From the NCBI GenBank assembly GCA_025451895.1, contig JANWJP010000169.1, forward strand, positions 1 to 47,677: 47,677 bases of DNA, written 5' to 3'. The notes under the pieces are model-generated. The model worked only from the letters and a program-made list of their open reading frames with translations, was not told the origin of the DNA and searched no databases. Source of the DNA: Robertmurraya sp. GTDB lineage: Bacteria; Bacillota; Bacilli; Bacillales; Cytobacillaceae. A program made the translations under genes and the position numbers. This document shows, in pieces, positions 6,023-14,232 of the stretch (position 1 is its first letter; each line of letters starts with the position of its first letter).

Positions 6023-8248
6023 TTACATTGACTCGTGGAATGTGCGGTTAATAACGTCAAGTTGTTGTTCTCTTGTTAATTTGATGAAGTTAACCGCATA
6101 ACCGGATACACGAATCGTTAATTGCGGGTAATTTTCAGGATGTTCCATTGCATCAAGCAATGTTTCCCTGTTCAAGACGTTAACATTCAAATGATGTGCG
6201 TCTTTTGCTGTATAACCGTCTAAGATGCTTGCAAGGTTCGCTACACGGCTGTTTTCATCTTTTCCTAAAGCATTAGGAACGATGGAGAAGGTATTGGAAA
6301 TTCCATCTAACGAGTAATCGTAAGGAATTTTTGCGACAGAAGAAAGGGAAGCTAATGCACCTTTCGTGTCGCGGCCGTGCATCGGGTTGGCACCCGGAGC
6401 AAGCGGTTCGCCATGACGGCGTCCGTCAGGTGTGTTTCCTGTTTTCTTTCCGTAAACGACGTTAGAAGTAATAGTCAGGATAGACAGTGTATGAACAGAA
6501 TCGCGGTAAGTTTTATGCTTTTTCAGTTTTGTCATAAATCTTTTCACAACGTCTACTGCAATGCTGTCTACACGGTCATCGTTGTTTCCGTATTTAGGGA
6601 AGTCTCCTTCAACTTCAAAGTCAACTGCAATGCCGTTTTCGTCGCGGATTGGTTTCACTTTTGCATATTTAATGGCACTTAAAGAGTCGGCAACTACACT
6701 CAGGCCGGCAATGCCTGTAGCCATCGTACGCAGAATTTTAGTATCGTGGAGCGCCATTTCAATGCTTTCGTAAGAGTATTTATCATGCATATAGTGAATG
6801 ACATTCAGTGTGTTAATATAAAGGCCGGCCAGCCAGTCCATTGTGCGATCGAATTTTTCCATTACTTCATCGTAGTCTAACACGTCAGAAGTAATTGGAG
6901 CATAAGCAGGTCCAACTTGCACTTTCTTAATTTCATCAACGTTTCCGTTAATTGCATATAGAAGAGCTTTTGCCAGGTTTGCGCGGGCGCCGAAGAATTG
7001 CATTTGCTTTCCGATTTCCATTGCGGATACGCAGCAGGCAATTCCGTAGTCATCACCGTAAATCGGACGCATAATATCATCATTTTCATATTGCACAGAG
7101 CTGGTTTCAATAGAAACTTTTGCGCAGTATTTCTTAAAGTTGTCCGGAAGTCTTGTAGACCAAAGAACAGTCAAGTTTGGTTCCGGAGCAGGGCCTAAGT
7201 TTGTCAAAGTATGCAAGAAGCGGAAAGAGTTTTTCGTTACAAGGCTGCGGCCGTCATTTGCCATACCGCCGATGGACTCTGTTACCCACGTCGGATCTCC
7301 GCTGAACAGTTCGTTATATTCAGGAGTACGGGCAAATTTTACTAAACGAAGCTTCATAACAAAATGGTCAACAAGTTCCTGAGCTTCTTTTTCAGTTAAA
7401 ACGCCGTTTTCCAAGTCTCTTTCAATATAGATGTCAAGGAAAGTAGATACTCTTCCCAAGCTCATTGCGGCACCGTTTTGTTGTTTAATGGCAGCAAGGT
7501 AAGCAAAGTACAGCCATTGGAATGCCTCGTGAGCATTGGCAGCCGGACGGGAAATATCATATCCGTAAGCTTTTGCCATGTCTTTTAATTCAACCAGTGC
7601 ACGGATTTGCTCTGAAAGTTCTTCTCTCAGTCTGATCACATCTTCTGTCATAACAGTTGATGTATTAGCTAAATCCTTCTTCTTTTCTTCAATTAAAAAG
7701 TCAATTCCGTAAAGAGCAGCGCGGCGATAGTCGCCGATAATCCGGCCGCGTCCGTAGGCATCGGGGAGTCCTGTGATAATTCCGACAGAACGGGCAGTTC
7801 TCATTTCATCGGTATATGCGTCAAATACGCCTTGGTTATGGGTTTTGCGGTATTCGGTAAATACTTTTTCGACGTCTTTATCAAGTTCATAACCGTATGC
7901 TTGTAAAGATTGTTTCGCCATCCGGATTCCGCCAAACGGCTGCAGTGAACGTTTGAACGGTTTATCCGTCTGGAAGCCGACAACTTTTTCTAAATTTTTG
8001 TCAAGGTAACCGGGACCATGGGAAGTAATGGTGGATACAACTTTAGTATCCATATCAAGAACGCCGCCTTTTTCGCGTTCTTGTTTAGAGAGTTCTAAAA
8101 CTTGATCCCATAGTTTAGTTGTTGCTTCTGTAGGTCCTTCTAAAAATGAATCATCGCCTGTATATTCTTTGTAGTTTCTTAGTATGAAGTCACTGACATT
8201 TACTTCAGTCTGCCAGGCTCCGCTTTTAAATCCCTTCCATTGTTCCAT
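6023..8248 (-). CDS. pflB: Pyruvate formate-lyase
   Basis: Converts pyruvate and CoA to acetyl-CoA and formate in fermentation. It has 741 residues, the usual length. The catalytic cysteine pair is Cys405-Cys406 (GIACCVSAM), and the glycyl radical site is Gly716 in RVSGYAVNF near the C-terminus. Both are intact, so this is a true PFL and not a glycerol dehydratase relative. It starts at an ATG preceded by AGAGGTGTAATACA. A perfect TGTGA-N6-TCACA box about 80 bp upstream suggests control by a Crp/Fnr protein. The formate it makes could feed the formate dehydrogenase at 14.9 kb. Confidence 0.98.
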
Positions 8249-8340: not shown

Positions 8341-8579
8341 TATATGTGAAAAATATGTGAACTTATTGTGTATCAAAGTATTTACGGTAGAAAAAAATAA
8401 AGATACAAAGTATTAGAAATATTTTTTAAAAAACTGTACTATAACTGTTATATCTGATGAAAGCTGTTATACAGTTTCTTGAAATAAATATTAAGAGGCA
8501 GCGCGATTGCTGCGGACCGGTTATATGTTCATGGAAATGGAAAAAACTAAAATTGTTTCCATTTATATCACCTTTCTGA

Positions 8580-12905: not shown

Positions 12906-13082
12906 ATGGTTAAAAAGCAACTGTATGACAGCACAAAAGTTGCAAATGCCCATTTTCGCCCTGAAGACCGGAATAAGAATGATGATTTATCATCAGCACT
13001 GGCCATAACCCATGAACAAGTCACTGATGCTTATGCGGAAGGGGGAATCGGAGGAGTCATCAATGACCCGGCAAGACAGTGA
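12906..13082 (+). CDS. Small hydrophilic protein, YozQ-like (DUF4025)
   Basis: A 58-residue protein; the start is the ATG at 12906 behind GAAGGGAGC. The centre DDLSSALAITHEQVTDAYAEG followed by a Gly-rich end matches my memory of Bacillus YozQ (DUF4025). It is charged and soluble, with no cysteine. Function unknown. It lies among other tiny genes of spore formers. Confidence 0.7.
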   Translation: MVKKQLYDSTKVANAHFRPEDRNKNDDLSSALAITHEQVTDAYAEGGIGGVINDPARQ

Positions 13083-13135: not shown

Positions 13136-13327
13136 ATGACAATCTTTTTTAAAAGATCACAGGAAGACAAGCCGGAAGAGATTCTTATGGATACAGTTGT
13201 TTATGCTTGTTCCGCTGATGATTGCAATGGCTGGATGAGGGAAGAATTTGCAACGGCCGATTTGAAATGTCCGCTTTGCGGAAATGAAACCATCCAGGAA
13301 ATACGCGAGCTTCCGCAAATTTCATAA
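13136..13327 (+). CDS. YdjO-like small zinc-ribbon protein
   Basis: A 63-residue protein resembling B. subtilis YdjO, described as cold-inducible. Two cysteine pairs (YACSADDCNGWMRE and KCPLCGNE) probably hold zinc. The ATG at 13136 is only a couple of bases from AGGAGGGG, unusually tight, so initiation may use the upstream AAGAGG portion. It is followed by its own terminator. Confidence 0.8.
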   Translation: MTIFFKRSQEDKPEEILMDTVVYACSADDCNGWMREEFATADLKCPLCGNETIQEIRELPQIS

Positions 13328-13372: not shown

Positions 13373-13572
13373 TATTGGCAGTCCGGCTCATCGGTTTACC
13401 GGTGATCCTGTACAGGAAATGTTGTAAAAACCGGTAATTAGTTGCAGTAATTAAACGCTGCTTCAATAAAAATACTTGTATACCCCATGTTAGTTGAAAT
13501 TTTTCATTACATACACTATTGCGAAATGTTCATATTTTCTTCACATTTAAGGAGAACGAAAGGGGTAAAAAG

Positions 13573-13587: not shown

Positions 13588-14232
13588 GAGCCAAGGAAGG
13601 GTCGACATTTCAGGAGACTCAACCATTAAGTGCTCGTTCCGTAAAGTGCGAGATTAATGATTTGGGTTCGCTTAATTGTTGAATTGTGCAAGCGGTTTCA
13701 AAGGGGAGAAAAATTGAAAACAACGGCAAGCCATCTCCAAATTGTAAGAGTAAATTCTTCAATTGGGGCTTTCGAAAGAAAGTGCTTGTAAAACTGAGTT
13801 CAGATAATGAATTCAGCTTTCCACCCGGCTAAGAAAAGAGTCTCTGTCTACGTTAATGTACACAGAGAGGAAGTTCTTAACCAAAAGTTTTTCGTCATGC
13901 AAATGGGAAAAATGGGAACATATCCGGTTGTCAAAATCAGATATGAACAAGTAATTGGTTGCTGGCAGGTTTCAAATACTCCTCATAATTAAATGGAAAA
14001 GCTGCCAATTCGTTAGAAACAATTAAGTGATTGAAAATTGAATATGGTTTTTAAAAACCGTGGATTACTTTCTGAAAGAAAAGTAAATCCGATTACGGAA
14101 CAACACACATCAGGTAAATTCCATTATTATAAAAAATTATAATAATGGACAAAGAGGAAACCTGATGAAAATGGTTGGGTCCCCTGGGATGTCGACATCG
14201 AAAACTCTCCGGTCAAACCGGAGAGTTTTTTT
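13588..14232 (+). ncRNA. Large structured non-coding RNA candidate (about 645 nt)
   Basis: The two ends pair over a long distance: 13601-13624 with 14173-14196, 24 positions with one A/C mismatch and three G-U pairs, extendable by three more pairs. Inside are many local helices: 13794-13802/13808-13816; 13827-13835/13874-13882 enclosing 13841-13847/13862-13868; 14046-14059; 14062-14071/14080-14090 with an outer CCGT/ACGG; and CATCAGGT/ACCTGATG (14108-14115/14160-14167) enclosing a perfect 12-bp stem (14121-14132/14137-14148). An extended -10 precedes it and a strong terminator follows. The only ORF (13807-13992, 61 codons) has no ribosome site and is covered by these helices. It is not RNase P RNA, tmRNA, 6S or SRP RNA by the motifs I know. 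It is in the size class of OLE, ROOL or GOLLD RNAs, but I cannot match it to any. Alternative: a small element with terminal inverted repeats. Confidence 0.7.
14201..14232 (+). terminator. Intrinsic terminator of the large ncRNA
   Basis: AAAACTCTCCGG and CCGGAGAGTTTT pair over a TCAAA loop, followed by seven T. It is one of the strongest terminators in the window and begins 4 nt after the ncRNA closing helix. 14233-14470 holds no gene. Confidence 0.92.

Follow-up and report, generated by a model that had tools for sequence, protein, structure and literature searches.

A gene for a large structured RNA, which judging by its sequence represents a so far undescribed class in Bacilli, lies on the forward strand of a 47,677-nt contig of Robertmurraya sp. 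(Cytobacillaceae; GCA_025451895.1, contig JANWJP010000169.1), the whole of which is called below the window; large structured RNAs as a kind are already known. Its copies in related genomes share three predicted helices, P1, P2 and P3, and the P1-P2-P3 core is the part with demonstrated conservation, P2 and P3 being placed inside P1 as a predicted three-way junction which encloses an interior of very variable length. On balance we consider it probable that this is a stand-alone gene of a new class of large structured RNAs, subjected to regulation and producing a scaffold of a ribonucleoprotein (RNP) particle for energy metabolism.

Extent and helical core of the RNA

The following elements of the locus are considered in this section.

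13588-14232, forward strand: large structured non-coding RNA gene as a whole, assigned from fold energy, homologues and the lack of an Rfam match at gathering score
13573-13581, forward strand: extended -10 promoter element TGCTATAAT, read from sequence
13601-13626, forward strand: 5′ arm of the closing helix P1, with 25 of 26 positions pairing with 14171-14196
14171-14196, forward strand: 3′ arm of P1, assigned from pairing counts, partner swaps and covariation
13630-13644, forward strand: 5′ strand of the long-range helix P2, GTGCTCGTTCCGTAA, with 9 of 9 Watson-Crick pairs between 13636-13644 and 14093-14101
14093-14106, forward strand: 3′ strand of P2, TTACGGAACAACAC, whose CGGAAC hardly or never varies among 45 near copies
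14108-14115, forward strand: 5′ arm of the hairpin P3, CATCAGGT, with 8 of 8 Watson-Crick pairs with 14160-14167
14160-14167, forward strand: 3′ arm of P3, ACCTGATG, with 8 of 8 Watson-Crick pairs with 14108-14115
13649-13652, forward strand: 3′ arm (CGAG) of a local hairpin alternative to P2, with no more than 4 pairs in the window copy
14201-14232, forward strand: intrinsic terminator (hairpin and T run), read from sequence

The original prediction proceeded from the complementarity of 13601-13624 to 14173-14196 at 23 of 24 positions with three G-U pairs, accompanied by an extended -10 upstream and a terminator downstream; on recounting, this stretch comprises 20 Watson-Crick pairs, 3 G-U pairs and 1 mismatch, and both flanking elements are present in the sequence. 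Judging from the position of the -10 element, the RNA would start at approximately 13588. P1 was extended to 26 positions, with 22 Watson-Crick pairs, 3 G-U pairs and 1 A.C mismatch. The best 24-position pairing over a distance of at least 300 nt in 25 Markov shuffles amounted to 22 once, to 21 once and to 20 or fewer in 23 cases, so that the helix of the window taken alone is unusual yet not impossible, and its conservation elsewhere is what decides. Terminator-like hairpins 3′ of P1 were seen by eye, as an uncounted impression, in many homologues. The folding energy of the 645-nt segment is −228 kcal/mol versus −143 ± 5 in shuffles (z −16.3, n = 20 shuffles), and the minimum-free-energy fold contains P1, the 9-bp P2 (13636-13644/14093-14101) and P3 (14108-14115/14160-14167). 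A second, cruder folding script, based on 12 Markov shuffles per RNA and on a slightly shorter window segment, gave z −5.6 for the window RNA, with 37 homologues ranging from −1.7 to −6.6; how large the folding excess appears is therefore a matter of method.

Coordinated change of the helix arms was assessed by partner swaps. Over 84 copies the outer arm of P1 pairs at 10.1 of 11 positions with its own partner versus 8.9 with swapped ones (0 of 2000 permutations as good), and in the 25 distant copies the respective values are 10.04 and 8.10. For the inner arm the distant copies gave 14.36 of 15 with own versus 13.68 with swapped partners, while in near copies the own-partner advantage is absent (14.49 vs 14.50). 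P3 reached z 8.8 and P2 z 4.5 in the same test (84 copies, 0 of 2000 in both cases); near copies alone showed no effect for P2 (685 of 2000), and the anchor of P2 was set wrongly in part of the copies, that of the window among them, an error expected to reduce the power of this test.

In the covariation analysis, a check proposed along with the original prediction, the best pair of P1 became significant once distant copies were added, while near homologues alone provided no significant pair over all column pairs. In the 77-row alignment including distant copies, the top 8 among 2485 column pairs all belong to P1, and under a tree-based null the best of them has E 0.025 and the next E 0.55, the best one alone being individually significant; P2 arms were left ungapped in this alignment, and copies with a one-base deletion stand there out of register, resulting in low P2 scores. 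Near homologues alone gave no significant covariation over all column pairs (best E 1.5, outside the P1 register), because P1 and P2 hardly vary there. Significance was attained in this set for 4 of 43 helix pairs, only with tests restricted to helix pairs, and the simulated null of one near-homologue covariation test did not keep column conservation. The near-copy alignment derives from 94 retained copies, reduced to 59 unique ones; four rows devoid of the exact P2 string (three loci of one genome and L056) had been dropped beforehand.

Compensatory exchange is exemplified by AGGAG/CTCCT versus AGGTG/CACCT in P1 and by GTGTTCGTTCC/GGAACAAACAC versus GAGTTCGTTTCC/GGAAACGAATTC in P2; P3 occurs in the variants CATCGATTG/CAATCGATG and TCACTTTTC/GAAAAGTGA. 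Base-paired structure is retained through compensatory change, as is expected of a large structured trans-acting non-coding RNA. Many positions of P1 are at the same time invariant on both strands, and a U.G wobble in it is retained in 79 of 84 copies; both properties exceed the needs of pairing and suggest a bound protein or tertiary contact. We also rejected AGGAG/CUCCU as a mimic of Shine-Dalgarno or anti-Shine-Dalgarno sequence, given that distant copies have AGGTG, AGGCG, AAGTG or AGTTG with pairing retained. At the pairs 13615/14182 and 13617/14180, positions 13617 (purine) and 14182 (pyrimidine) mostly covary (G/T in 31 and A/C in 21 of 59 near copies), and by this joint change one weak P1 pair is always present in near copies; in some distant copies (10 of 84) 13615/14182 is a U-A pair.

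The 5′ strand of P2 (13630-13644) serves also as the 5′ strand of the alternative local hairpin, which raises the prospect of a conformational switch, where GUGUUCGUUCC would pair with the local GAACGA at an early stage of transcription and later with the distant 3′ strand of P2. Partner swaps argue for this hairpin over 84 copies (z 3.6, 0 of 2000) and in near copies (26 of 2000), as do L155 and L157, where both sides are exchanged and TTGGTT/AACCAA takes the place of TCGTTC/GAACGA; tested by themselves, however, the 25 distant copies are not significant (736 of 2000), and the window copy can form 4 pairs only. Such a switch, which is compatible with the RNP scaffold, seems to us possible though doubtful.

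Distribution and relation to known RNAs

A DNA search of 61 genomes returned, outside the source genome, short end matches only; at nine loci (L009-L017) these corresponded to the 5′ end, and in two genomes to the 3′ end as well. As an exact pattern the 5′-end motif was detected in 75 of 193 genomes of the source family (Cytobacillaceae), at 77 places, versus 0 of 193 for the reversed control. The same pattern retrieved 60 stretches from a genome contig collection (84,980 species by its own description), titled Neobacillus, Mesobacillus, Robertmurraya, Cytobacillus, Bacillus and, once, Pseudomonas. The latter, L111 (JAGGRA010000028.1, Pseudomonas sp. ISL-84), has a copy that on visual comparison closely resembles the one in Cytobacillus oceanisediminis (L093) and probably belongs to a mislabelled assembly. 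Carriers include complete genomes titled Neobacillus, and among those open to cultivation are Neobacillus drentensis, N. niacini and Robertmurraya korlensis; the viral contigs searched did not contain the 5′ motif, and phage and plasmid records gave no blastn match to the RNA gene. The partner motif (GGTTGGGTCYCCTAAG or near) follows the 5′ motif at a distance of 184-796 nt in 54 of 62 copies, the window included, and in the remaining 8 the sequence ends before the 3′ end could appear. In the shortest copy (L083:1549-1775) 184 nt separate the end motifs with P1, P2 and P3 retained, which makes it a natural minimal version.

More remote relatives were sought with R1, a covariance model covering the 3′ core; the pairs of P1 and P2 extend beyond the modelled stretch and were therefore omitted from it. 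R1 matches 51 of 397 genomes of the order (Bacillales) in 23 of 136 genera, the counts coming from related genomes rather than from independent events. Forty of the matched genomes are outside the source family; 19 of these were read, and all 25 copies in them have a 5′ partner with at most 4 mismatches, while weak matches among the other 21 may be false. Some second R1 matches represent the 5′ arm of P1 read on the opposite strand. The model matched 11 of 16 sampled genomes of the source family, 5 of 398 genomes of the class Bacilli (three of the source family and two of another family) and 2 of 398 genomes of the phylum Bacillota, both of the source family. L167 and L168, which belong to another family of the class, possess P1, P2, P3, the -10 element and the terminator. 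Patchy spread within the source family, by exact motif (75/193) as well as by the model (11/16), implies that the RNA is not essential.

The source genome (assembly 94.9% complete) contains 1 copy, and multiple genomic copies, which if flanked by target duplications would according to the original prediction have favoured a gene or mobile element, were not found there. Tandem copies occur elsewhere, two in L071 and three each in L161 and L162, three being the most seen per genome; in L161:2500-4900 and L162:2500-4950, from two genomes of one genus, every one of the three tandem RNA genes is equipped with a -10 and a terminator-like end of its own. A mobile element or MITE with P1 arms as terminal inverted repeats would account for the imperfect 26-bp inverted repeat at the ends, for the variable interior and for two or three copies in some genomes. 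We nevertheless consider it highly improbable, since instead of many dispersed copies there are a single one in the source genome and 77 exact-motif places in 75 genomes, a conserved promoter borders one repeat on its outer side and a terminator follows the other, and the changes in P1 are compensatory.

Comparison with Rfam 15, suggested as a check in the original prediction, revealed no family at gathering score in the window. At 28 related loci (9 + 19) the RNA likewise had no match at gathering score; in 19 of them (one of the source family and 18 of other families) the matches were confined to nearby genes, namely 5S rRNA, 23S rRNA and a BsrG RNA, and five loci, including the most distant, gave no match to the RNA up to E 0.1. 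Rfam includes families for group I and group II introns, tmRNA, raiA, ROOL and GOLLD, and neither these nor any other Rfam 15 family exceeded the gathering threshold for the RNA at the loci scanned. The best sub-threshold match, to the PyrR leader, had 29.6 bits versus 54 needed and covered, across long insertions, a pair of hairpins that includes the terminator; this candidate was rejected.

The relation to OLE deserves separate consideration. The gathering threshold of RF01071 was reached neither in the window nor at the scanned homologous loci, and the source genome has no OLE. In the order as a whole OLE was detected in 224 of 397 genomes; it is found in 0 of 16 sampled genomes of the source family (the new RNA being present in 11 of these) and, among carriers of the new RNA in other families, in 37 of 40 (kinship of genomes being uncorrected), while the OLE model did not match at 18 other-family loci of the new RNA. 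OLE and the new RNA are different families, often in the same genomes, and the original view of the RNA as distinct from OLE is thereby upheld. Assignment to a known RNA in divergent form, such as OLE, RNase P or 6S, could appeal to an OLE-like size and Bacillota distribution, and yet is barely credible in view of the lack of Rfam matches, of the coexistence with OLE, and of genuine counterparts elsewhere in the source genome: RNase P RNA type B (RF00011) is encoded on another contig (G000:C75) and has no match here, and 6S RNA (RF00013), for which a match here is absent too, is encoded by two genes on other contigs (C138, C78).

The ends of 6S RNA are closed by a helix, as are those of the new RNA, which is, however, more than three times as long as the 187 positions of the 6S model (RF00013). 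The gene adjoining OLE is that for OapA. With OLE the new RNA shares size, structured character and occurrence in Bacillota, but differs in plan, having a conserved core formed by its ends and, between them, an interior whose length varies greatly. OLE (RF01071) is described as a structured RNA of about 600 nt from Bacillota forming a membrane-associated RNP, with its biochemical function open, and according to a paper title growth on alternative carbon sources is impaired when it is disrupted (PMC9723947, PMC10898510). The raiA motif (ModT), ROOL and GOLLD are likewise presented as large structured bacterial RNAs (PMC11706538, PMC12286853); the new RNA resembles them in being large and structured and is unlike them in having no Rfam match at gathering score and no matches in viral contigs, phages or plasmids. 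The smtA motif "Soda Lake RNA" is reported to be an RNA that exceeds 350 nt, is supported by covariation, has unknown function and is confined exclusively to Thioalkalivibrio upstream of smtA (PMC11109978); it is similar as a large covariation-supported RNA and is set apart from the new RNA by this description, that is by host and by position upstream of smtA. A description of the new RNA was not found in the open-licence literature searched.

Reading frames and neighbouring genes

13807-13992, forward strand: 61-codon open reading frame within the RNA, judged not to be a gene (best match in 85 other copies E 0.12)
13136-13327 and 12906-13082, forward strand: YdjO and DUF4025 genes, the immediate upstream neighbours of the RNA

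Since the frame of 61 codons is open, the locus might be taken for a small-protein gene with a structured mRNA. This is extremely unlikely, because none of the 85 other copies contains a counterpart of the 61-aa frame and the longest sense frames are no longer than in shuffles (median 40 versus 41 aa). Conservation of this frame had been indicated in the original prediction as grounds for preferring a gene, and it is absent from homologues; the RNA gene has no conserved protein frame. The initial suggestion of a large structured non-coding RNA outside known classes agrees with the whole of these data, namely no Rfam family, a coevolving closing helix, no conserved frame and 1 copy in the source genome.

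Genomic surroundings of the RNA are inconstant. The nearest downstream frame of at least 80 aa has the same orientation in 37 and the opposite in 12 near copies, the respective numbers for distant copies being 11 and 14 (analysis of 79 copies). Neighbours are common within related groups only, one downstream family being present in 24 near copies, and among the 12 largest neighbour clusters listed one joins near copies with a distant copy. Own promoter and terminator sequences together with the lack of a fixed downstream gene are, at the level of sequence, what is expected of a stand-alone non-coding RNA; given these sequences, and since apart from single cases near and distant relatives have no neighbour in common, the RNA should act in trans.

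Several particular arrangements were observed on the way. A molybdopterin oxidoreductase gene is located downstream of the RNA in the window, and a YdjO-like protein was noticed by eye near the RNA also in L010 and L011. One protein family adjoins the RNA in L148, L150, L154 and L158, distant loci of two families. In L140:1-895 a copy is situated just 3′ of a 23S-5S rRNA stretch, and a BsrG RNA (RF01412; L146:2652-2899) lies about 1 kb from a distant copy.

Promoter elements and proposed role

13528-13546, forward strand: direct repeat GTTCAT-n-TTCACAT upstream of the RNA gene, presumed activator site with an 11-bp period (weak match, 3 mismatches)
8344-8362, reverse strand: same direct repeat before pflB (6023-8248, reverse strand; PFL-like and Gly_radical by Pfam), 29 nt before an extended -10
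13687-13700, forward strand: cre-like site TGCAAGCGGTTTCA about 100 bp into the RNA gene, a presumed target of CcpA (consensus match)

The strictest form of the repeat is TTCAC-n6-GTCACAA with an 11-bp period. With no more than 1 mismatch allowed, 67 of 86 homologous promoters contain its looser form versus 7.2 expected in shuffles, and it is missing at this level from 19 of 86, including both copies of the other family in the class. The spacer between the repeat and the -10, counted in 76 promoters with the repeat at no more than 2 mismatches, is 29 nt in 61, 30 nt in 9, 20 nt in 4, and 31 and 34 nt once each; the TGn extension of the -10 is present in 70 of 86 homologues. Such fixed spacing is what a regulator touching RNA polymerase would need. 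Within the window, matches of the repeat with 3 mismatches number 15 versus 10.5 expected and are singly not above chance, so that the pair of repeats before the RNA and pflB acquires its weight from their standing in promoters with identical 29-nt spacing.

Genome-wide occurrence of the exact motif with a downstream TATA was followed in 12 genomes of Neobacillus (genus g24), where it precedes the RNA gene in 4 cases and stands at 6 other places, four of them before a cytochrome oxidase operon (L180, L182, L185, L189) and two before an atp operon (L178, L190). In 50 further genomes the exact motif precedes the RNA gene in 2 cases and is found at 10 other places: oxidase in two (L198, L203), atp in two (L196, L204), pflB in one (L194), the YozE region in three (L193, L195, L199), a 338-aa protein in L191 and a short frame in L192. 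All 6 Neobacillus places other than the RNA gene thus belong to oxidase and atp operons, as do 4 of the 10 in the further set; the reversed control of the pattern gave 1 and 2 matches, respectively. Pfam families over cut-off at motif-bearing loci were COX1, ATP-synt_A, ATP-synt_I, ATPase_gene1, PFL-like and YozE, with COX2 just below it (20.9 vs 22); the oxidase is presumably of the ba3 type. In L193 and L195 the repeat stands before a small frame, membrane-bound-looking by eye, upstream of the YozE gene. Co-regulation is deduced here from motif sharing in related genomes, which amounts to few independent cases (oxidase, atp, pflB and the YozE region), and the RNA gene probably belongs to an energy-metabolism regulon.

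Cre-like sites (TGNAANCGNWNNCW, the consensus we assumed for scoring) are enriched in the 150 nt upstream (16 of 86 versus 0.3 expected) and in the first 175 nt of the RNA (7 of 86 versus 0.3), the rest of the RNA giving 0 of 86 versus 0.3; they are located upstream in some members and inside the RNA gene in others. As candidate binder of the promoter repeat we take ResD, an OmpR-family response regulator, for which a binding consensus was not found in the literature searched.

The main rival to the RNP scaffold is antisense action by the interior: a long regulatory RNA would base-pair with energy-metabolism mRNAs, P1-P3 protecting its ends and the lineage-specific interior carrying target-pairing stretches. 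The interior is indeed variable, its sequence being similar only within lineages and not across them, and words such as GTGGAGCGAT (23 of 57 near copies) and ATTGCCAAGA (22 of 57) are conserved within one lineage; own promoter and terminator sequences and a promoter motif common to respiratory operons are consistent with such a regulator as well. Conservation across families concerns, however, the double-stranded core and not an unpaired seed, and we regard this mode of action as unlikely.

The preferred reading, an RNP scaffold, may be outlined as follows. The stand-alone RNA gene would be transcribed from its own promoter to its own terminator, giving an RNA with ends closed by P1, and its level would be tuned to oxygen and carbon supply by an OmpR-family response regulator, with ResD as the candidate, and by CcpA. 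The near-invariant core of P1 may serve as a protein binding site, which is the most likely mechanism, and the RNA may be the scaffold of an RNP particle helping the cell to change its energy metabolism, in parallel to OLE, which is thought to help other bacilli to adapt. A fully specified version, in which a respiratory regulator and catabolite control trigger the RNA, the RNA, bound to a protein at the P1 core, itself adjusts respiration or fermentation so as to fill the role of OLE in a family without OLE, and two states arise by exchange of the 5′ strand, is speculative and, in its entirety, quite unlikely.

Families of large structured bacterial RNAs are few, and some of them are RNA-protein machines; the RNA considered here would add one more, with a well-supported core in dozens of bacilli. 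Its promoter elements point to energy metabolism, and the protein that may recognize the P1 core, as well as the part which the RNA may take in the change between respiration and fermentation, have now become testable.
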